Source of the DNA: Gammaproteobacteria bacterium
GTDB lineage: Bacteria; Gemmatimonadota; Gemmatimonadetes; Longimicrobiales; Gaopeijiaceae
Assembly (NCBI GenBank): GCA_028821195.1
Contig: JAPPHB010000085.1
Coordinates: forward strand, 4,580 to 68,579
Reading direction: 5' to 3'
DNA: 64,000 nt
A model generated the notes under the pieces. The model saw nothing but the letters and a program-made list of their open reading frames with translations. It did no database searches and had not been told where the DNA came from. Shown piece after piece: positions 3,912 to 53,906 of this stretch. The position numbers were made by a program, and so were the translations under genes. Each line of letters begins with the position of its first letter. Within the stretch, counting starts at the first letter, position 1.

Positions 3912-4663
3912 CCCAGCAGGGCCGGGAGCACCTCCCCCGCAGCCCCCCGCAGCGCCACCGTGGCGGATCGGGTGAGCGGGGTGTCCTCCAGGTTCACCTC
4001 GATGAGGCTGCCACCGGCCTCCAGGGTGGCCAGCGGGACCGCCGCGGCCGGGTAGACCACCGCGCTGGTGCCCACCACCAGGCAGAGGTCGGCGCGCTCG
4101 GCCAGCGAGTAGGCGCGGGCCAGCACGTCGCCGTCGAGCGACTCGCCGAACAGCACCACGTCCGGGCGGCGCAGGCCGCCGCACGAGTCGCACCGCGGCA
4201 GAGCGTCACCCAGCGGCTCCGCGGGAAAGCGGGCCTCGCAACGGTTGCAGCGGTCCCGCCCGACCGCCCCGTGCAGCTCGACCGGAAGCGCCGCCTCCGG
4301 CGGCCCGTTGCCCGCCTCCTCCACTGCCGCGCGGGTGTGCAGGCCATCCACGTTCTGTGTCACCACCCCGGCCGCGCCGCGCGCGAGGAAAAACCGTGCC
4401 AGCGCGCGGTGCCCCGGATTGGGAGCGCACCCCGCCAGCACCGACCGCCGCCAGTCGTACCACTCCCACGCGGTACGCGGATCGCGCGCGAACGCCTGCG
4501 GTGTGGCGAGCTCCTCCGGGCGGTAGTTGCGCCACAGCCCGCCCGCGTCCCGGAAGGTGGGAACACCCGATTCCGCGGAGATGCCCGCGCCCGTGAGCGC
4601 GACCACCCGCCGTGCTTCGCCTACGAGCCGCCGCGCCCGCTCGATGTCCACCGAGGCGCTCAC
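3908..4663 (-). CDS. Sir2-family NAD-dependent protein deacylase
   Basis: The 251-residue product removes acyl groups from lysines using NAD+. Visible: the NAD-binding GAGISAESGVPTFRD (25-39), QNVD (103-106), catalytic His131, and a zinc ribbon formed by Cys139/142 and Cys158/161. Tyr69-x-x-Arg72 in AWEWYDWRR matches the class III (SIRT5/CobB) signature that binds succinyl- or malonyl-lysine, so desuccinylation or demalonylation is a reasonable inference. The GTG start at 4663 overlaps the stop of the membrane-protein gene upstream by 4 nt (4660-4663), so the two genes are probably translated together. A much longer reading upstream is out of frame with known sirtuins and is rejected. Confidence 0.93.
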   Translation of the reverse strand: MSASVDIERARRLVGEARRVVALTGAGISAESGVPTFRDAGGLWRNYRPEELATPQAFARDPRTAWEWYDWRRSVLAGCAPNPGHRALARFFLARGAAGVVTQNVDGLHTRAAVEEAGNGPPEAALPVELHGAVGRDRCNRCEARFPAEPLGDALPRCDSCGGLRRPDVVLFGESLDGDVLARAYSLAERADLCLVVGTSAVVYPAAAVPLATLEAGGSLIEVNLEDTPLTRSATVALRGAAGEVLPALLG

Positions 4664-44049: not shown

Positions 44050-45236
44050 GGAGGGGATGGGCGAGGCCGGGCGCCGCGAGAAGCGTTTCAGCTGAAACGC
44101 GGATTCGGGCCACGGGGATGTCGATTTGGGCGATGTCGGGCGCGGCGATGACGTGCTGGGAACGATTTGGTGGTGCGGCGCGGGTCGCCCGCCGTGCCGC
44201 GTTGATGGCGCTCCTTGCCGCCGGCGTCCCCACCCCCGCCGCTGCCCAGGAACTCCCCGCACCCCCCTCCCTCCGCGTCGCGGTCGACACCACCACGACC
44301 ACGGTGGGCGGGCGCCTCCACCTGACCGTAGCCGTCGAGCACGGCCCCGACGCGACCGTCCAGTGGCCCGACTCGCTCGACCTGGCGCCCTTCGAGGTGC
44401 TCGGAGCGGCCGTGAGCCCCACTACCGTGACCGACGGGCGCGCCACGACCACGGCCGTGCTCACCCTGGCCGCATTCGAGCTGGGCGAACTCGAGATTCC
44501 GAGCTTCACGGTGGGCGTGACCTCCCCCGCCGGCGTGACCGAACTCGTCACCGACCCTTTCGGCATCGCGGTGGTGAGCGTCGGACTCGACGAAGGACAG
44601 GACATCCGCGACATCCGTGGTCCGCTGTCCATCCCGCGCAGCATGCTGGTGACCGGGCTCTGGGTCCTCGCGCTCGCGCTGGCCGCTGCCGCCGGCTGGT
44701 GGCTCGCGCGCCGCGCCCGGCAGCGCACGACCGATGAAGGACCCGTCTCCGAGGATCCGCTGCGGCCCGCGCACGAGCTTGCGTATGAACAGCTCGACTG
44801 GCTCGAAACGTCGGGGCTCCTGGGACAGGGCCGCATCAAGGAGTACTACATCGAGGTGTCGGACATCATCCGGCGCTACCTGGAAGGGCGCTACGCCATT
44901 CGGGCACTGGAGATGACCAGCGGGGAGGTGCTCGAGCAACTGGACGACGCGGGCGTGAGCTGGGACGTCCACGATCGCTTCACGGCGTTCCTGGCGCACT
45001 GCGACCTGGTCAAGTTCGCCAAACACCGCCCGAGCCCGACCGCGTGCGCTCTGATCGTGCCTGACGCGCGTGCGCTCGTGGACGCGACCCTGCCGCCCCC
45101 GGAGCCCGAGCCGGAGGAGGAAGGGGAAGGAGGCGATGGGCTGGAGGAGGATGGCTTGCCGGGCGCCGGTGAACCGACCGGGGCGGTTGCCGCGCAGCCG
45201 CAAGTCGTCCCCCTTGCCGGCGGGGACCGACGATGA
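44046..45236 (+). CDS. Exported membrane-anchored protein of the Bat operon (DUF4381-like)
   Basis: 396 residues from the ATG 44046, which overlaps the DUF58 stop by 4 nt. The first ~49 residues before the signal helix (ALMALLAAGVPTPAAAQ) are unusually long and contain an 18-bp palindrome, so the true start may be ATG 44118 or 44133. The periplasmic strand domain (LRVAVDTTTTTVGGRLHLTVAV) is followed by one membrane helix (about 200-220, MLVTGLWVLALALAAAAGWWLA) and a cytoplasmic part with HELAYEQLDWLE, IKEYYIEVSDIIRRYLEGRY and LVKFAKHRPS, the DUF4381 pattern. An acidic/proline tail ends the protein. Normal member of MoxR-Bat operons. Confidence 0.85.
   Translation: MRRGWARPGAARSVSAETRIRATGMSIWAMSGAAMTCWERFGGAARVARRAALMALLAAGVPTPAAAQELPAPPSLRVAVDTTTTTVGGRLHLTVAVEHGPDATVQWPDSLDLAPFEVLGAAVSPTTVTDGRATTTAVLTLAAFELGELEIPSFTVGVTSPAGVTELVTDPFGIAVVSVGLDEGQDIRDIRGPLSIPRSMLVTGLWVLALALAAAAGWWLARRARQRTTDEGPVSEDPLRPAHELAYEQLDWLETSGLLGQGRIKEYYIEVSDIIRRYLEGRYAIRALEMTSGEVLEQLDDAGVSWDVHDRFTAFLAHCDLVKFAKHRPSPTACALIVPDARALVDATLPPPEPEPEEEGEGGDGLEEDGLPGAGEPTGAVAAQPQVVPLAGGDRR
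44083..44100. promoter_or_regulatory. 18-bp perfect palindrome near the start of the third Bat-operon gene
   Basis: GCGTTTCAGCTGAAACGC is self-complementary over all 18 bases. It falls in the poorly supported N-terminal extension of the gene at 44046, 35-50 nt ahead of the alternative ATGs at 44118 and 44133. It has the look of a LacI-family operator, so it may mark an internal promoter. Confidence 0.5.
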
Positions 45237-46225
45237 ACTTCGAGTTCGCGGATCCCGCCTTCCTCTGGCTGCTGCTCGCGGTCCCCGCGCTCGCGTGGTG
45301 GTACTTTGCGCGCCGGACGCGCAGGGGCGGTTCGCTCGTCTACTCGGACCTCGCGGCGGTACGGCGCGCAGACGTCCGCCGGGGCGGACGCTGGCGTCAC
45401 GTCCTGCCGGTCCTGCGCCTGCTGGCCGTGGTCGCGCTGGTGCTGGCCTTCGCCCGGCCCCGCGCCGGCGTCACCAGCGAGAACGTCCTCACCGAAGGCA
45501 TCGACATCGTGCTGGTGCTGGACATCTCAAGCTCCATGCTGGCCGAGGATCTCGAGCCCAACCGCATCGACGCGGCCAAGCAGGTCGCGGCCGACTTCGT
45601 CTCCGGGCGTCGGAATGACCGTATCGGCCTCGTGGTCTTCGCCGGCCAGGCCTTCACCCAGGTGCCGCTCACCCTCGACTACGGCGTCGTGCGCGAGCTG
45701 ATGGACGAGCTGGCCGTGGGCATGGTAGAGGACGGCACCGCGGTCGGGATGGGGCTCGCCACCGCAATCAAGCGGCTGAACGAGAGCGTCGCCGAGTCGA
45801 AGGTCGTGGTGCTGCTCACCGACGGCCGCAACAACCGCGGCGAGATCGACCCGCTCACCGCCGCGCAGATGGCACAGGCGCTGGGCGTGCGGGTGTATAC
45901 CATCGGGGCCGGATCGCGCGGCACCGCCCGCGTGCCGGTCGACGACCCGCTGCTGGGCCGGCGCTATGCGACCGTGCGCGTGGACGTGGACGAGGAGACC
46001 CTGGCCGAGGTCGCGAGCACCACCGGCGGACAGTATTTCCGGGCCACCGACACCGAGAGCCTGGCGAGCATCTACCAGGAAATCGACGAGTTGGAAACCA
46101 CGGAAATCGAGGTGCAGAACTTCACGCGCTATACGGAACTCTTCCACTTCCCCCTCGCGGCCGGGCTCCTGCTTCTGCTGATGGAGGCCGGTCTCGCGAA
46201 CACGCTCCTGCGCAAGCTCCCGTAG
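45233..46225 (+). CDS. batA: BatA-type vWA membrane protein
   Basis: 330 residues, 4-nt overlap with the preceding gene. Two N-terminal membrane helices (about 9-25, 57-74), a periplasmic/cytoplasmic vWA domain with MIDAS DISSSM (97-102), Thr in DGTAVGMGLA and Asp in LLTDGRNN, and a C-terminal helix (FPLAAGLLLLLMEAGLA). Bat proteins form a membrane complex linked to stress tolerance in some bacteria; the molecular task is unclear. Confidence 0.94.
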   Translation: MNFEFADPAFLWLLLAVPALAWWYFARRTRRGGSLVYSDLAAVRRADVRRGGRWRHVLPVLRLLAVVALVLAFARPRAGVTSENVLTEGIDIVLVLDISSSMLAEDLEPNRIDAAKQVAADFVSGRRNDRIGLVVFAGQAFTQVPLTLDYGVVRELMDELAVGMVEDGTAVGMGLATAIKRLNESVAESKVVVLLTDGRNNRGEIDPLTAAQMAQALGVRVYTIGAGSRGTARVPVDDPLLGRRYATVRVDVDEETLAEVASTTGGQYFRATDTESLASIYQEIDELETTEIEVQNFTRYTELFHFPLAAGLLLLLMEAGLANTLLRKLP

Positions 46226-46231
46226 CGGCCA

Positions 46232-47278
46232 ATGTTCAGATTCGGATCCGTGGAACTGCTCTTCGGGCTGCTGCTGGTGCCCCTGCTGGCGCTGCTGCTC
46301 TGGCATGGCGCGCGCACGCGCCGGCAGGCGCTGGACCGATTCGGCGACAGCGAGCTCGTGCGCCGGCTGGCGGCGTCGGTGCACCGGCGCAACCGGACGC
46401 TGCGTACCCTGTTCTTCCTCGGAAGCGTCGGCTTGCTGCTCACCGCGCTGGGCCGCCCCCAGTTCGGAACGCGGGTGGAGACCGTGCGGCGCGAAGGCAA
46501 GGACGTGGTGGTGGCGCTGGATCTGTCCCGTTCCATGCTCGCCGAGGACATTGCGCCCAATCGGCTGCAGCGCGCCAAGCTGGAGATCCTTCGCCTGCTG
46601 GACCGGCTCGAGGGCGACCGCGTCGGGCTGGTGGCCTTCGCCGGCCAGGCCTTCGTCCAGAGCCCGCTGACCACCGATTACGCCGCCACCCAGCTTTTCC
46701 TGAGCGCCATGGACGTCGACCTGGTGCCGGTGCAGGGGACGAATCTCGGGGAGGCGATGAGCGTCGGGCTCGATCTCTTCGACGAGGAGGTGCGCGAGTT
46801 CCGGGTGCTCCTGATCGTGACCGACGGGGAGGACCACGAGGGCGAGGTCGACGAAGCAATCCGGCGCGCCAACGACTCTGCCGTGCGCGTCTTCACCGTG
46901 GGCATCGGCTCTCCCGACGGGGTCCCGATCCCCGAGTTCGACGACGCGGGCAACAGGCAGGGCTTCCAGCGGGACGCCGATGGCAACGTCGTGACCACGC
47001 GCCTGGACGAGGCTACCTTGCGGCGAATCGCCGACGCGGCCGGGGGAGGCTTCTACCTCAGCACCCCGCAGAGCGTCGAACTCGACGCCCTCATCGACGA
47101 GATGAGCACGGTGGGGACGCGCGAGATCGATGCCCGCGAGATCGCGCAGTTCGAGGAGCAGTTCCAGCTTTTCCTGGGAGCGGCGCTACTGCTACTGCTG
47201 ATCGAACCGCTGCTTCCGGCGCGGAGAAGGGGCGAGGCCGGCAGACAGGCTGCCCGCTGGACGGGAGGTGCCGAATGA
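46232..47278 (+). CDS. batB: BatB-type vWA membrane protein
   Basis: 348 residues. Membrane helices at about 8-26 and 56-75, vWA MIDAS DLSRSM (97-102), QGTNLGEAM and IVTDGEDHEGE, and a C-terminal helix (LFLGAALLLLLIEPLLPARR). Same layout as BatA, and the two probably pair. Six-nt gap to batA and 4-nt overlap with the next gene. Confidence 0.94.
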   Translation: MFRFGSVELLFGLLLVPLLALLLWHGARTRRQALDRFGDSELVRRLAASVHRRNRTLRTLFFLGSVGLLLTALGRPQFGTRVETVRREGKDVVVALDLSRSMLAEDIAPNRLQRAKLEILRLLDRLEGDRVGLVAFAGQAFVQSPLTTDYAATQLFLSAMDVDLVPVQGTNLGEAMSVGLDLFDEEVREFRVLLIVTDGEDHEGEVDEAIRRANDSAVRVFTVGIGSPDGVPIPEFDDAGNRQGFQRDADGNVVTTRLDEATLRRIADAAGGGFYLSTPQSVELDALIDEMSTVGTREIDAREIAQFEEQFQLFLGAALLLLLIEPLLPARRRGEAGRQAARWTGGAE

Positions 47279-48009
47279 GAAACCGCAAGGCGTTTCTGTC
47301 GATGACCGGCACGCTGCTGATGGCTGGTGCGTTGCTCGTGCCCGGTGCGCTGAGCGCCCAGCGCGGTCTCGTGGAGGAGGCCAATCGCCTCTACGCCGAG
47401 GGCCGCTTCGCCGAGGCGCACGAGATGTACCTGGAGGCTCTGCGCGAGAATCCGGGTTCGCCGCTGATCCGCTTCAACGAGGGCAACGCCCTCTATCAGA
47501 ATCAGGAATTCGAGCGCGCCCTCGAGGCGTACCGGGACGCCATCGAGAGCGGAGACACGGCGCTGGCCGAGGGCGCATGGTACAACCTTGGCAACTCGCT
47601 CTTCCGCCGGCAGCAGCTCGACGCGAGCCTCGAGGCGTACAAGCAGGCGCTGCGCATCAACCCCGGGGATCTCGACGCCAAGCACAATCTCGAGCGCGTG
47701 CTGGAGCAGATCGAGGAGCAGGAGAATCAGCAGGATCAGCAGGATCAGAATCAGGACGATCAGGACCAGGAGAATCAGGATCAGCAGCAGCCGCCTCCGG
47801 AGGGGGATCCGGAGCAGGATGAGCAGGACCAGCCGCCGCCCGAGAACGACGAGCAGGAGCAGGAGCAGCCGGCCCAACCGCCGCCCGGGCAGATGACGCC
47901 CGAGGAGGCCGAGCGCCTCCTCCAGGCCATTCAGGAAGACCCCGACGAGGTCGATCGCCCGCCGCGGGCGGACTCGCTCGGGCGGAGACCGCGAAAGAAC
48001 TGGCGATGA
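47275..48009 (+). CDS. batC: BatC-type TPR protein with Gln/Asp-rich tail
   Basis: 244 residues with signal peptide (MTGTLLMAGALLVPGALSAQ). TPR units at about 30-140 (ANRLYAEGRFAEAHEMYLEAL, NEGNALYQNQEFERALEAYRDAI, NLGNSLFRRQQLDASLEAYKQAL). From about residue 145 the chain is Gln/Asp/Glu/Pro-rich and repetitive (NQQDQQDQNQDDQDQ), then MTPEEAERLLQAI. Matches BatC in position and layout. Overlaps batB and batD by 4 nt. Confidence 0.92.
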   Translation: MRNRKAFLSMTGTLLMAGALLVPGALSAQRGLVEEANRLYAEGRFAEAHEMYLEALRENPGSPLIRFNEGNALYQNQEFERALEAYRDAIESGDTALAEGAWYNLGNSLFRRQQLDASLEAYKQALRINPGDLDAKHNLERVLEQIEEQENQQDQQDQNQDDQDQENQDQQQPPPEGDPEQDEQDQPPPENDEQEQEQPAQPPPGQMTPEEAERLLQAIQEDPDEVDRPPRADSLGRRPRKNWR

Positions 48010-49835
48010 GCGGGGTGCGCTTCGCGATCTGGCTTGTCGCGCTGTTGCCGCTGGCGCTGGCCGCGGACCCCGCGTGCGCGACCGCTCAACAAGTCTCCGC
48101 GCGCGCCTACCTGAGCAGCAACCAGGTCGGCGTCGGACAGCAGTTCGTGCTGAACGTGGAGGTGGCCGGAACCCAGGGCGTGGACCAGGACCCCGAACTG
48201 CCGGACCTGAGCTCCTTCTCGGTGTACCTGGGGAGCGGCTCCTCGAGCTCGATCCAGATGTCCGGCGGGCGCACCAGCATCACGCTCACCATCCAGTATC
48301 GCTTCCAGGCCACGAGCGCGGGCACCTTCACCATCGACCCCTTCGAGGTGCGGGCCGGCGGGGGGGCGTTCACCACCGAACCGCTCACCCTGACCGTTGC
48401 CGACGCGCCCGTCCCCCAGGGTCCCTCGGCGGGACCGGGCGCGGCTGACCGCGGCGTCGCGCCCGAGGACCTCTTCGTGGAGGCGGTGCCGAGCCGGCGG
48501 CAGGTGTACGAGAATCAGCCCGTGGTGGTCGACTACCGCATCTTCACGCGCGTGAACGTGAGCTCGTACAGCATCACCCAGCTGCCTCCCGCGACGGGGT
48601 TCTGGGTGGAGGAGTATCCGCCGGCAGGCAACCCCGTGATCGGTCAGACGGTCCGCGACGGGATGCAGTACACCACCGCGACCATCCGCAAGGTGGCGTT
48701 CTTCCCGACCGGGTCGGGCACGCGCACCCTCGAGCCGCTGGGCATCGAGGCGCAAGTGCGGGTGCGGCGCCGCTCGGCCTTCGACCCGTTCGAAGACTTC
48801 TTCGGGCGCGGCTCGCTCCTGAACTCGAGCATCTCGACGGCGGCGGCCTCGCGGCCGGTGGAGATCGAGGTGCTGCCGCTGCCCGGTGGGCGCCCGGACG
48901 ACTTCACCGGATTCGTGGGCGACCTGGACGTCACTGCCACCCTCGACCGCGACAGCGTGCAGGTCAGCGATGCGGTCACCCTGACCGTAGAGGTTGCGGG
49001 GAGCGGCAACCTGCGCATGCTGGCCGAGCCCCGGGTGGAGGTCCCGCCCGGCTTCGAGGCCTTCCCGCCCGAGGTGACCGAGCGCGTCGACCGCACCGAC
49101 GCGGGGGTGAGCGGAACGCGTACCTACGAGTACGTGCTGGTGCCGCGGGCGCCGGGGGTGGGGGCCATCCCGCCCGTCGAACTGGCCTACTTCGATCCCG
49201 GGAGCGGGACGTACGAGGTCGCGGCCAGCGGGGCGCTCGCGGTCGAGGTCACCGGGGTGGCGGCGGACGGGCCGCTGGGGACCGGCCGGATGCGGGCGGG
49301 GGTGGAGGAGCTGCGCACCGACATCCGCTTCATTCAGCTCGGCAGCCCGGCCCTCGTGCTGGCGAACCGGACGCTGTTCGCGCACCCCCTCTTCTGGATC
49401 ACCCTGCTCGTGCCGCTGGCGGCGGTGGGTGGGGCGGCAGGGCTGCGCCGCCACCGCGACCGGCTTCTTGGGGACGTTGCGTACGCCCGCTCGCGCCGCG
49501 CGGCGAAAGTGGCCAGGAAGCGCCTCGCGGAAGCGCGCAAGCTGGCGGATGGGGAGGACGTGCGCGCCTTCTACGCCGAAGCCGGACACGCGCTCGAAGG
49601 CTTCCTGGCCGACAAGCTCAACATTGCCGCCGCCGGCATGATCCGGAACGAGGTGCGCGACCGGCTGGCCGCCCTGGGCGTCGACACCGAGGCGGCCGAT
49701 CCCTATCTGGAATGCCTGGAGGAGTGCGACCGGCAGCGCTTCGCCCCCCCGACCGCGGCGGCGGCGGAGCGCGCGCGCTTCCTTGGCCGGGTGGAGTCGG
49801 CCATGGCGGCCATGGCGGAGCACCTCGCCCGATGA
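48006..49835 (+). CDS. batD: BatD-type oxygen-tolerance-like protein
   Basis: 609 residues with a signal peptide (to about ATAQQ). Strand-rich Ig-like regions characteristic of BatD: QVSARAYLSSNQVGVGQQFVLNVEV, ITLTIQYRFQATSAGTFTI, DLFVEAVPSRRQVYENQPVVVDYR, VTATLDRDSVQVSDAVTLTVEV, YEYVLVPRAPGVGAIPPV. One membrane helix (about 463-485) and a cytoplasmic helical tail follow. Fits the fourth Bat partner. ATGA links both neighbours. Confidence 0.93.
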   Translation: MSGVRFAIWLVALLPLALAADPACATAQQVSARAYLSSNQVGVGQQFVLNVEVAGTQGVDQDPELPDLSSFSVYLGSGSSSSIQMSGGRTSITLTIQYRFQATSAGTFTIDPFEVRAGGGAFTTEPLTLTVADAPVPQGPSAGPGAADRGVAPEDLFVEAVPSRRQVYENQPVVVDYRIFTRVNVSSYSITQLPPATGFWVEEYPPAGNPVIGQTVRDGMQYTTATIRKVAFFPTGSGTRTLEPLGIEAQVRVRRRSAFDPFEDFFGRGSLLNSSISTAAASRPVEIEVLPLPGGRPDDFTGFVGDLDVTATLDRDSVQVSDAVTLTVEVAGSGNLRMLAEPRVEVPPGFEAFPPEVTERVDRTDAGVSGTRTYEYVLVPRAPGVGAIPPVELAYFDPGSGTYEVAASGALAVEVTGVAADGPLGTGRMRAGVEELRTDIRFIQLGSPALVLANRTLFAHPLFWITLLVPLAAVGGAAGLRRHRDRLLGDVAYARSRRAAKVARKRLAEARKLADGEDVRAFYAEAGHALEGFLADKLNIAAAGMIRNEVRDRLAALGVDTEAADPYLECLEECDRQRFAPPTAAAAERARFLGRVESAMAAMAEHLAR

Positions 49836-50686
49836 GCGCGCGGTCGGCGATGTCTCCAAAGTGGACACCCGTGTCCTCTCCGGGACTCTCCCGGGGGGCA
49901 TCGGCCGGCGCCACGAGGCTGACGGTCCTGGCGATCCTCGCGGTGGCGACCGCAGTCCTGCCCGGGTTGGCGATCCCGACGGCACGGCTCCACGCCCAGG
50001 ACGAACTCTTCGACGAGGGCAACCGCCTCTATCAGCAGGAGGACTACCAGGGCGCGCTCGACAACTACCTGCGCATCCGCGAGGCGGGGTTCGAGAGCCC
50101 GGGCCTCTACTACAACATCGGCAACGCCTACTTCAAGGCGAACGAGCTGGGCCGGGCCATCCTCTACTACGAGCGGGCCCGGCGGCTCGCCCCCGGCGAC
50201 CCCGACATCCTCGCCAACCTGGAGCTGGCCCGTTCGCTGGGCGCGGACGAGATCATCCCGCTGCCGCGCTTCTGGCTTTTCCGGGTCGGATCGTGGTGGA
50301 TGAACCTCTTCCCGCGCTCACTCCTCATCGGGCTGACGGCCGCGGGCTACCTGATGGCGGCCGGGGCGGTGGTGGTGCTGGTGCTGCGGCTGGGGGCGGC
50401 GTCCTGGGCGCGTCGCGCCGCGGTCGCGGGCGGGGTGGTGCTGCTGCTGCTTGGCGCCACCCTGGCCGCGCGGGAGACCGGGCTGGGACAGCCGCTCCAC
50501 TCGGTCGTGCTCGCCGCCGAAGTGGGTGTCCAGAGCGCTCCCTCCGACGACCCCGCGCTCCAGCTGTTCGTCATACACGAAGGCACCCGGGTGCGTGTCG
50601 ACCGGCGCTCCGAGGAGTGGGTGGAGGTGGTCCTCGACGACGGCAAGGTGGGCTGGGTGCGCGCGGAGGTGCTGGAGGAGGTCTAG
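49832..50686 (+). CDS. batE: BatE-type TPR, membrane and SH3-like protein
   Basis: 284 residues. An N-terminal signal or anchor (RLTVLAILAVATAVLPGLAI), TPR pair (FDEGNRLYQQEDYQGALDNYLRI, YYNIGNAYFKANELGRAILYYERA), two membrane helices (about 150-190 and 196-215), and a C-terminal SH3-like strand domain (VGVQSAPSDD...GTRVRVDRRSEEWVEVVLDDGKVGWV). This is the usual BatE layout. Last gene of the operon. Confidence 0.92.
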   Translation: MSARSAMSPKWTPVSSPGLSRGASAGATRLTVLAILAVATAVLPGLAIPTARLHAQDELFDEGNRLYQQEDYQGALDNYLRIREAGFESPGLYYNIGNAYFKANELGRAILYYERARRLAPGDPDILANLELARSLGADEIIPLPRFWLFRVGSWWMNLFPRSLLIGLTAAGYLMAAGAVVVLVLRLGAASWARRAAVAGGVVLLLLGATLAARETGLGQPLHSVVLAAEVGVQSAPSDDPALQLFVIHEGTRVRVDRRSEEWVEVVLDDGKVGWVRAEVLEEV

Positions 50687-50794: not shown

Positions 50795-51961
50795 ATGATT
50801 GCGAGAGAAAGCAAGGCCCGCGTGGAGCATTTGCTCTCCCGGAACCCCGCTGTGGTCCTCACCGGAATGCGTCAGGTGGGCAAGACCACGCTGGCCATCG
50901 AGATCGCCGGAGAGGGCGCCGCGGCCTATCTGGACCTGGAACGACCCCGGGACCGGGCCAGGCTGGCGGACGTCGAAGCGTACTGCGCGCGAAACGCGAG
51001 CCGGCTGATCGTGTTCGACGAGATTCAGCGCGTTCCGGGGCTGTTCGAGCCCCTGCGGGGAATCATCGACCGGCGGAGGCGCGAAGGCCGGCGGACCGGA
51101 CACTTCCTCTTCCTGGGCTCGGCCTCGATCGATCTGCTCAGGCAATCGAGCGAGACGCTGGCGGGCCGGGTCGCCTATTGCGAAATGCAGCCGCTGAGTG
51201 TCTCTGAAGTCGGAGGATGGGAGTCCGACAGGCTGTGGCAGCGGGGCGGTCTGCCCGACAGCTTCCTCGCGGCCGAGGACGAGGACAGCCTGGAGTGGCG
51301 GCTCAACTTCATCCGCACGTATCTCGAGCGCGACATCCCCGGCTTCCGTCCCCGGGTTCCGGGGGAGACCCTGCGCCGATTCTGGACCATGCTGGCCCAC
51401 AGCCAGGGACAGGCCTTCAACGCCTCCATGCTGGGCAGAAGCCTCGGCATCGCCAGCGTGACCGTCAGCCGCTATCTGGATCTTCTTGTCGACCTCCTCC
51501 TGGTGCGTCGGTTGCAACCATGGTTCGCCAACGTCCGCAAGCGTCTGGTCAAGGCTCCGAAGACATACATTCGGGACAGCGGCATCTGTCACGCGCTACT
51601 CGGAATCGATTCGCTCGACTCGCTCTTCGGGCATCCCGTCGTGGGCGGCAGCTGGGAGGGCTTCGTCATCGAAAACCTGCTGAGTCGCATCCCGGCGAGA
51701 GCTCAGGCGGGCTACTACCGAACGGCGGGAGGGGCCGAGATCGACCTGGTGCTGGACATTGGCGGGGGCGAGCTCTGGGCGATCGAGGTCAAGAGGAGCA
51801 CGGCACCCTCGCTGTCGCGCGGGTTCCACAGCGCGTGCGACGATCTCCGGCCGGCCCGCAAGTTCGTCGTGCACCCGGGAGGCGACGACTTTCCCCTGGG
51901 CCGCAGCATCGAGGCCGTATCGCTGCAGAGCATGAGGCGGCGATTGTCCGAAGTGGCCTGA
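50795..51961 (+). CDS. AAA-type ATPase with DUF4143 domain
   Basis: 388 residues. Walker A TGMRQVGKTT (23-32), Walker B LIVFDEIQRVP, LGSASIDLLRQSSETLAGRV sensor region, then the DUF4143 part with IRTYLERDIPGF, TVSRYLDLLVDLLLVRRLQPW and the nuclease-like EGFVIENLL...GAEIDLVL...AIEVKRS. The GAEIDLV...EVK pattern is a PD-(D/E)XK-type fold. Role unknown; family members often stand alone and have been discussed as defence or mobile-element-linked. This gene sits after the Bat operon without a link. Confidence 0.92.
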   Translation: MIARESKARVEHLLSRNPAVVLTGMRQVGKTTLAIEIAGEGAAAYLDLERPRDRARLADVEAYCARNASRLIVFDEIQRVPGLFEPLRGIIDRRRREGRRTGHFLFLGSASIDLLRQSSETLAGRVAYCEMQPLSVSEVGGWESDRLWQRGGLPDSFLAAEDEDSLEWRLNFIRTYLERDIPGFRPRVPGETLRRFWTMLAHSQGQAFNASMLGRSLGIASVTVSRYLDLLVDLLLVRRLQPWFANVRKRLVKAPKTYIRDSGICHALLGIDSLDSLFGHPVVGGSWEGFVIENLLSRIPARAQAGYYRTAGGAEIDLVLDIGGGELWAIEVKRSTAPSLSRGFHSACDDLRPARKFVVHPGGDDFPLGRSIEAVSLQSMRRRLSEVA

Positions 51962-52104: not shown

Positions 52105-53004
52105 ATGATGCATCCATGCGACCGGTCAAGTGAGCAGCGGCAAAGGTGGGAGTGCTTGCTGCGCACTCTTTCCGGGTCGGTCCTCCTGCTGGCGATGGGC
52201 TGCCTTCTCCTCCCCGCCGGCATCCATGCGCAGGAGACCGAAGCCACGCCGGTACGCGTCAACATCGAGGGAGTCGTCCTGGACGAAATCACCGGGACGC
52301 CGGTCGCGGGAGCGGCGGTGTACCTGGAGGACGAGGACCGCGGCGCACTCACTGACGTAGACGGGGCGTTTCGCATCGAAGGCGTCCCCGCCGACTCGCA
52401 GACCATCGTCGCAACCCAGTTCGGGTACTGGGAGGTCGCGGCGGCGGTCGACGTGCCCGAGGCCGGCGTAAACGTCGAGATAGAACTCAAGCCCAGGCCG
52501 ATCCTGCTCGACGGCGTCACCGCGGTGGCCGACAACATCGACACCATGGTGAGGCGCCTTCAAACGCGGCGGCGATCCCTTCCGTATCAGACCCGCGTGT
52601 TCGACCAGGAACGGCTGCTGCGCAGCGCGGAACCCGATGTCCTCGAGTTCCTTTGGCGGGAGACCAGCCTCGGGCGGCGTCCCTGTCCGCTCACGGTCGG
52701 CATGACGATGATGGGATGGCAGCCGAGCCGGGGCCTGGGGGCATGGGCCCTTCCCTCCCAGGTGTCCGGGGCGCTGGCGAGTCACTGCATATGGAGACGG
52801 GGACGCATCGTCAGCCCGAGAGTGTACATAGACGAGATACCGGCCGTCAGCGGCCTGGATGCACTCAGGAACTACCCGACGACCCAGATCTACGCGTTGG
52901 AGGTCTATTCCCAGGGCGCCGAGATCCGGGCCTACACCTACCGCTTCATGCAGCGCATGGCCGAAGAACCCCGGGCGCTGATTGCCCTCACCCTCTGGCC
53001 GTAA
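52105..53004 (+). CDS. Carboxypeptidase-regulatory plus plug-like exported protein (copy 1)
   Basis: 299 residues from ATG 52105 (52108 also possible). Signal helix SVLLLAMGCLLLPAGIHAQ. A carboxypeptidase-regulatory-like Ig domain (VRVNIEGVVLDEITGTPVAGAAVYLED to about 130) and a linker (RRLQTRRRSLPYQTRVFDQERLL). The C-terminal third (RIVSPRVYIDEIPAVSGLDALRNYP then QIYALEVYSQGAEIRAYTY) resembles the last part of a TonB-receptor plug, but no barrel follows; the protein ends LWP. A closely related copy is next to it. Confidence 0.75.
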   Translation: MMHPCDRSSEQRQRWECLLRTLSGSVLLLAMGCLLLPAGIHAQETEATPVRVNIEGVVLDEITGTPVAGAAVYLEDEDRGALTDVDGAFRIEGVPADSQTIVATQFGYWEVAAAVDVPEAGVNVEIELKPRPILLDGVTAVADNIDTMVRRLQTRRRSLPYQTRVFDQERLLRSAEPDVLEFLWRETSLGRRPCPLTVGMTMMGWQPSRGLGAWALPSQVSGALASHCIWRRGRIVSPRVYIDEIPAVSGLDALRNYPTTQIYALEVYSQGAEIRAYTYRFMQRMAEEPRALIALTLWP

Positions 53005-53018
53005 CGGGCGGTTACGAA

Positions 53019-53906
53019 ATGCATCCACGCACACGGAAGGGACGACGGTATCGAAGGTGGGTGGGCATCGCGAACAAGTCCGCCGTTGGCCTCTTCCTGT
53101 TAATGGTCGGCCTCACCTCCCCCGTTTCCGTCGATGCGCAGGAGGCGGAGCCCTCGTCCATCCGCGTCCCGCTGCACGGCATCGTCTACGATGCCTTCAC
53201 GGGCGCCGCCGTGGCGGGAGCCGCGGTCTACCTGAACGGCGAGGGATACGGGGTGCTGTCGGACTCCGCGGGTGTCTTCCGCTTCGCGGACGTTTTCCCT
53301 GGGCCGCAGCTCGTCGCCGCAATCCAGTTCGGGTATGAAGAGACGGCAGCGCCGGTCGAAGTGCCCGAGGAAGGCGCCTTCATCGAGATCGAGCTTACGC
53401 CCCAGCCCATCCTGCTCGACGGTGTTACGGCGGTGGTCGACAACATCAGCACGATGGAGAGGCGCATGCGCTCGCGGCGTCGGTCCGTTGCGTTCCAGAC
53501 CCGTGCGTTCGACCAGGAACGCTTGCTGCGCAGCGCGTCGGCCACCGTGCTCGAATTCCTGCGTTCGGAAACCCACTACACTCCCGTCCCCTGCCCCGCG
53601 GGCACCGGCATTTTCGGCACCGGGAGTTCAACCGGCAGCCTCGGCTGGCACGGAATCTCCCGGTTGACCGGCGCGCTGTCGACAAGCTGCATCATCCGCC
53701 GGGGAAGAACGATCAGCCCGAGGGTGTACATCGACGAAATGCCGGCCATCGGCGGGCTGGACGAACTCGAGAGCTACCCCACGGCGCAGATCTACGCGCT
53801 GGAAGTCTTTTCCCAGGGCGCCGAGATCCGGGCCTACACCTACAACTTCATGCAGCGCATGGCCGAGAGACCCATGGCGCTGATTCCCATCAACCTCTGG
53901 CCGTGA
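53019..53906 (+). CDS. Carboxypeptidase-regulatory plus plug-like exported protein (copy 2)
   Basis: 295 residues starting 14 nt after copy 1, same layout: signal helix (VGLFLLMVGLTSPVSVDAQ), Ig-type regulatory domain (VPLHGIVYDAFTGAAVAGAAVYL), MERRMRSRRRSVAFQTRAFDQERLL and the plug-like end ISPRVYIDEMPAIGGLDELESYP. The shared C-terminus (FMQRMAE.P.ALI...LWP) shows a tandem duplication. Together they may act as small adaptor or decoy forms of TonB receptors, or as outer-membrane lids; this is inference. Confidence 0.75.
   Translation: MHPRTRKGRRYRRWVGIANKSAVGLFLLMVGLTSPVSVDAQEAEPSSIRVPLHGIVYDAFTGAAVAGAAVYLNGEGYGVLSDSAGVFRFADVFPGPQLVAAIQFGYEETAAPVEVPEEGAFIEIELTPQPILLDGVTAVVDNISTMERRMRSRRRSVAFQTRAFDQERLLRSASATVLEFLRSETHYTPVPCPAGTGIFGTGSSTGSLGWHGISRLTGALSTSCIIRRGRTISPRVYIDEMPAIGGLDELESYPTAQIYALEVFSQGAEIRAYTYNFMQRMAERPMALIPINLWP

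Follow-up and report, generated by a model that had tools for sequence, protein, structure and literature searches.

Two complete genes lie in tandem on the + strand of the 64,000-nucleotide stretch analysed in this study (positions 4,580 to 68,579 of contig JAPPHB010000085.1, assembly GCA_028821195.1; hereafter the window), 14 nt apart according to the list of open reading frames and their translations. An earlier reading of these letters (hereafter the original prediction) had described them as twin TonB-receptor-like proteins with a regulatory Ig domain and a plug-like end but no barrel. Both frames were found where it had placed them, and the two motifs to which it had drawn attention, PRVYIDE(I/M)PA(VS/IG)GLD(A/E)L and ALEV(Y/F)SQGAEIRAYTY, are present in both proteins. 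The twins, here called A and B, are 56% identical and have the same order of parts: an export signal ending in A-x-A followed by Q, a CarboxypepD_reg domain and a C-terminal domain of approximately 165 residues. Their features are as follows.

52105..53004, + strand: twin A, complete gene, 299 amino acids (aa); ATG at 52105, with the adjacent ATG at 52108 as a possible second start
52105..52230, + strand: presumed signal peptide of twin A, with an A-x-A/Q type end before QETEATPV, by eye
52264..52521, + strand: CarboxypepD_reg domain of twin A, residues 54-139 (PF13715, E 1.3e-14)
52504..53001, + strand: plug-like domain of twin A, without barrel, from profile matches (the fold model is that of B, with A in its alignment)
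52684..52686, + strand: conserved cysteine 1 of twin A
52786..52788, + strand: conserved cysteine 2 of twin A, 33 residues lying between the two
53005..53018, + strand: gap of 14 nt between the twins
53019..53906, + strand: twin B, complete gene, 295 aa, ATG at 53019
53019..53138, + strand: presumed signal peptide of twin B, ending before QEAEPSS, by eye
53172..53429, + strand: CarboxypepD_reg domain of twin B (PF13620, E 4.1e-10; PF13715, E 5.6e-8; fold match)
53412..53903, + strand: plug-like domain of twin B, without barrel, from the AlphaFold2 model and from profile and fold matches
53592..53594, + strand: conserved cysteine 1 of twin B
53688..53690, + strand: conserved cysteine 2 of twin B, 31 residues lying between the two

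The signal peptides of both twins were read by eye and not with a predictor. Checked for a lipobox in the same way, the signal region of B contains no cysteine, and that of A contains AMGC, which is atypical as a lipobox and is not conserved in the A orthologues. The mature proteins have no membrane-like segment (highest 19-residue hydropathy of 1.15 and 1.39).

The N-terminal domain was readily assigned, since CarboxypepD_reg (PF13620/PF13715) exceeded the Pfam cut-offs in both twins; it was also detected in 39 of 39 aligned relatives at E<=0.1. Its predicted fold is transthyretin-like, and the nearest structures were carboxypeptidase D (Z 14.1) and the N-terminal extension (NTE) domain of SusC (Z 12.7). 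The regulatory domain proposed previously is thus real, but its fold is not strictly that of an Ig domain.

For the C-terminal half, neither twin matched the Pfam Plug model (PF07715) at E<=1, and this model detected nine of the 39 relatives at E<=0.1 (best E 3.5e-7). A profile of the half was built from the 39 aligned members, each of which was inspected for the absence of a barrel, and was compared with 23 receptor plugs of the same genome, which were drawn from iterated family-profile matches, a choice that could favour look-alikes. With 36 of the 39 alignment rows taken by hhalign, the comparison gave 98.1% in global mode (E 6.5e-13) over the whole plug length and 97.6% in local mode, against 0.1-0.3% for six local-mode controls (one reversed, five column-shuffled). 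Searched against PDB sequences, the profile gave eight matches at E<=1, of which the top six were to BtuB and the remaining two to a terpene synthase; the best E for BtuB was only 0.031, and the region matched was residues 7-112 in four cases and 3-108 and 9-112 in the others.

Structure prediction pointed in the same direction. The AlphaFold2 model of mature B had a mean predicted local distance difference test score (pLDDT) of 78.4. Because a fold search with the whole protein was dominated by the regulatory domain, the C-terminal half was predicted separately (pLDDT 75.9; predicted template modelling score 0.69). In a Foldseek search of PDB with this half at E<=10, all 50 listed of 79 matches were TonB-dependent receptors, one of them at E<=0.001, and the best VIA Z, 6.0, was to SusC 5fq6 (92 residues, 3.4 Å, model 23-145 versus chain 37-168). 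The plug-like end of the original prediction is therefore borne out by profile and predicted structure, weakly so if only the twins are used. That no barrel is present was also correct: with 299 and 295 aa, both proteins terminate as soon as the plug is complete, and there is no barrel frame downstream.

Compared with receptors of the SusC/RagA and Oar types, the twins share the order signal peptide, CarboxypepD_reg NTE, box-like strand and plug, with a collinear match over the whole plug. With Pfam Plug they have in common the fold, as predicted, and the elements RG, (I/V)D and IEV, although the Pfam model itself misses the twins. On the other hand, the twin family differs from these receptors in lacking the barrel and the GPAAATLYG element, in having IDE for IDG, in two added cysteines and in a helical end. 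RG is invariant in all 39 aligned members, and the residue after ID, which is G in receptors (IDG), is E in 34, D in four and G in one. The receptor plug stretch GPAAATLYGTEAS is absent from the alignment. In place of the transition into a barrel, the last strand (IRAYT) is followed by a helix (FMERMA). Two receptor features are absent here: K/R-G-P following the IEV strand, and the exit of the strand towards a barrel. The SusC/RagA model (TIGR04056) scored 36.9 bits for A and 11 bits for B and did not reach its cut-off of 368.25.

The cysteines form a further regular feature. Both loop cysteines are present in 38 of the 39 members and neither in the remaining one, and the total number of cysteines is even in every member. 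All eight members with a cysteine at alignment position 195 also have a tail cysteine, which occurs by itself in three others. This is the pattern to be expected if disulfides form in an oxidising compartment. The loop between the two conserved cysteines (6-33 residues in the 38 members that have them) is the most variable part and the one in which A and B diverge most: they are 26% identical in the loop, 55% in the regulatory domain, 63% from the linker to the first cysteine and 73% in the C-terminal part. On these profile, model and alignment results, it is very likely that the twins belong to a conserved family of intact proteins with an export signal, one CarboxypepD_reg domain and a TonB-receptor-type plug without a barrel. 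Judged by sequence, they are a variant form of the known plug domain, and the view that they are fragments is contradicted.

The family is maintained in relatives. With an E-value threshold of 1e-12, 33 of 59 searched genomes were matched, and both forms occur side by side in nine of the 11 genomes of the genus, the exceptions being G009, where only pieces were found at the start of a contig, and G007, which is 67% complete and had no match. Eight genomes were checked for location (own genome (G000), G001, G002, G003, G004, G005, G006 and G008), and the pair occupies the same genomic place in all of them; G002 and G006 have extra twin-type copies. Ratios of nonsynonymous to synonymous substitution rates (dN/dS) were 0.105-0.378 for A (28 pairs) and 0.060-0.423 for B-type copies (36 pairs), calculated with G010 (a near-copy of G004) and the B of G003 (altered end) omitted and with G007 and G009 contributing no complete copy. 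In the phylogenetic tree, which carries long-branch warnings for the outgroup rows, A forms one clade over eight genomes (99/99), separate from the B-type copies; a third type (G002, G006) is supported at 100/100, and the deep forks among B-type copies are poorly supported. The A form is thus older than the species sampled, and two forms have been kept, in line with the earlier suggestion of selection for both.

The A orthologues are 73-83% identical to the own-genome copy, and most flanking proteins are approximately 85-100% identical. The BatE-like TPR protein beside A has 77-80% identity and one other bat protein goes down to 76%; since some bat proteins are similarly diverged, the twins are fast-evolving but not unique in this respect. 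Twin B is nearly identical to its counterparts in G002 and G008 (synonymous rate, dS, of 0.02-0.06), and the dS of A there is 0.35-0.37. The low dS of B relative to A suggests that the B gene underwent exchange or conversion.

The original prediction had called for such short forms to be counted in relatives. At E<=1e-6, the C-terminal profile had matches in 79 of the 395 Gemmatimonadota genomes searched, or in 69 of 286 when those of good quality are taken, a count of plug profile matches in which the absence of a barrel was inspected for the 39 aligned members only. Eight of the 79 belong to the genus, 46 more to the family, 13 more to the order and 12 more to the class; 11 of the 12 class-level matches are weak (5e-7 to 9e-8) and may therefore be other kinds of plug. 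Tandem arrays recur, with at least five copies in G046 and at least three in G052, both being lower bounds as 10 candidates were scored per genome. A contig scan with exact peptide patterns, which reached close relatives only, found the locus in metagenome-assembled genomes of Gemmatimonadetes, the BD2-11 clade and Longimicrobiales, and in three records titled Gammaproteobacteria. The host of the window is taken to be a member of Gemmatimonadota.

Barrel-less plugs are not confined to the twin family. In the 4.2-Mb own-genome assembly, 54 Plug matches were found, 14 of them in frames without a match to the barrel model PF00593. Eight of these frames encode complete short proteins, another five are uninspected long frames, and the last, on C77, is truncated at a contig end. 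The eight short proteins, four twin-family members and one lipoprotein-like plug at ~71 kb of C80 (a weak match, E 6.6e-5) give at least 13 barrel-less plug proteins in this genome. By eye, several architectures can be distinguished among them, for example lipoprotein-like plugs, a protein with two plugs and a fusion of a plug with an M56-like membrane peptidase. The fusion (C66:63858-65297; L142) has membrane helices and HEREH, resembles M56/BlaR1 peptidases by eye and has a barrel-less plug (IERIEVIKGSAATGLFGDGAANGVIQIFTK) as its C-terminal end; it is followed by a small gene that encodes only a plug. A protein at C69:118508-119488 (L140), in which a regulatory-like domain and a plug are joined to a further plug-like end, adjoins a long receptor-like frame. 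The region C80:56000-72000 (L059) holds a cluster, conserved in L099, in which a twin paralogue is accompanied by two receptors, a SusD-family gene, plug lipoproteins, an amidohydrolase and an M20 peptidase. At C119:29861-32116 (L150) lies a 751-aa frame resembling an outer-membrane barrel; its match to the TonB receptor barrel model is weak and under the cut-off, and it has no plug match. The contig pairs C89/C126 and C110/C113 have identical receptor matches, which hints at redundant sequence in the assembly.

What could a plug do without a barrel? We propose that, after export, the two conserved cysteines would form a disulfide closing the loop between plug strands 2 and 3, which would help the plug to fold in the absence of a barrel. 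The product would be a soluble protein that acts in the periplasm (or is released) and binds a partner, which may be a nutrient, a peptide, a receptor or TonB. Its plug core might serve as a rigid scaffold and the disulfide-closed loop as the recognition surface, and tandem copies would then offer two or more specificities on one scaffold. In receptors, plug loops of this sort form the ligand-facing top of the plug. The isolated plug of FepA, a laboratory fragment that is also barrel-less, is reported as unfolded (PMC11658791), so the paired cysteines of the natural twin family make sense. As a whole, identity and binding mechanism together, this is the best explanation that we could find, with a probability of roughly 0.45. 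The mechanistic part, a soluble binding protein with its specificity set by the loop, is favoured but tentative: export, disulfide, solubility and the role of the loop are all inferred.

Several observations weigh against this explanation. The local hhalign result falls to 33.9% when the alignment is reduced to its first 17 rows, which are genus members and paralogues from the own genome, and to 4.3% with the twins alone, so the plug identity of the twins leans on the wider family. The VIA Z of 6.0 is modest, although persuasive because all listed Foldseek matches agree. Both models are poorly determined in the loop, where pLDDT is below 50, and the variability of the loop may simply reflect a lack of constraint; the dN/dS values cover the regulatory and plug halves as wholes (medians 0.21-0.32). 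Finally, no conserved neighbour pointing to a pathway was found in the genomes checked.

The main rival is that the TonB-box-like strand before the plug lets a soluble protein engage TonB, and so tune or compete with full receptors, which we consider unlikely. The profile is collinear with BtuB from residue 7 on, a stretch that we take to be the TonB box of BtuB, and a box-like pattern is conserved (V/I/L at alignment position 96 in 39 of 39 members, E/D at position 94 in 34 of 39). Position 98, presumably the V of the usual TonB box, is nevertheless A in 18 of 39 members, both twins included, and V in another 18, and the segment is helical in both AlphaFold2 models. According to PMC6434023, a barrel-less NTE plus plug of Myxococcus Oar interacts with the C-terminal domain of TonB1 in a two-hybrid assay, and PopC secretion is still supported when Oar lacks the NTE; these facts keep the rival alive. 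The own genome contains four TonB_C matches. A decoy role at TonB is conceivable, but a mere decoy would need neither a conserved plug core nor paired cysteines nor a variable loop.

It is considerably less probable that the twins act in trans as a receptor subunit, inserting into or docking on a receptor barrel. FhuA has reportedly been reconstituted from a cork and a barrel supplied separately, a barrel-like frame that lacks a plug does exist (C119), and the C80 twin paralogue lies between two receptors, with receptors, SusD gene and plug lipoproteins within ~7 kb in an order kept in L099, so a receptor link is possible for the family. However, 40 of the 41 frames with a PF00593 barrel match in the own genome carry their own plug, the exception being the weak match of C119, which argues against one-to-one partnership with plug-less barrels; the twin family lacks the K/R-G-P and the strand exit that receptors have at this point; and no receptor was found beside the twins in the genomes checked. 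The earlier notion of periplasmic partners or decoys of full receptors was not borne out.

A sensor or regulatory module, in which the plug-like domain would detect a solute or the state of the envelope and relay it to another protein, appears similarly improbable: the plug fusion to an M56/BlaR1-type peptidase in the same genome gives it a precedent, but the mature twins have no membrane-like segment and no conserved regulatory neighbour. That the twins are remnants of broken receptors, a doubt already voiced in the original prediction, was rejected as extremely improbable despite altered copies in relatives (the end of B in G003, pieces in G009), because both genes are complete, present genus-wide in a conserved place and under purifying selection (all dN/dS below 0.43), and the next gene starts soon after B with no barrel frame following.

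Plug domains are familiar as components of barrels. A natural family of plugs that have paired cysteines and no barrel would reveal how this fold can exist by itself, and it would be a soluble handle on plug-TonB and plug-ligand binding. For annotation, matches to 'TonB receptor plug' need not be receptors. More speculatively, and with clear doubt, Gemmatimonadota may have made the receptor plug a free-standing, disulfide-stabilised recognition scaffold, exported in tandem diverging copies like solute-binding proteins; with at least 13 barrel-less plug proteins in one genome, the plug would then be a general binding module and not only a cork. No description of a barrel-less plug family was found in the open literature searched, including the accessible parts of PMC12704123, PMC11658791, PMC6434023 and PMC10469786, with subscription journals outside its coverage.

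With regard to the surroundings, no sigma-70-like promoters were found, terminator-like sites numbered two against 1.2 expected, and plasmid records gave no match to the query. Downstream of the pair, all eight genomes have a small gene, a quinone-oxidoreductase-like gene and a creatininase gene, the small and last ones lying partly beyond contig ends in some. A conserved operon partner was considered and rejected, since other lineages have other neighbours in a survey made with a home-made gene caller that missed some members (L058, L126). Upstream in the window lies a bat (aerotolerance) operon (44205-50686) encoding two BatA-type vWA proteins, a TPR protein, BatD and a TPR-SH3 protein; it is also present in the six relatives whose contigs reach there, G002 being the only one of the eight without it, as its contig ends at that point. 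Between the operon and A, at 50795-51961, is an AAA_14/DUF4143 ATPase gene, which also occurs in G001 and G005 and is missing from this position in G003, G004, G006 and G008. In the genus, the bat operon and the twin pair are separated by either ~130-275 nt between matches or this intervening gene.
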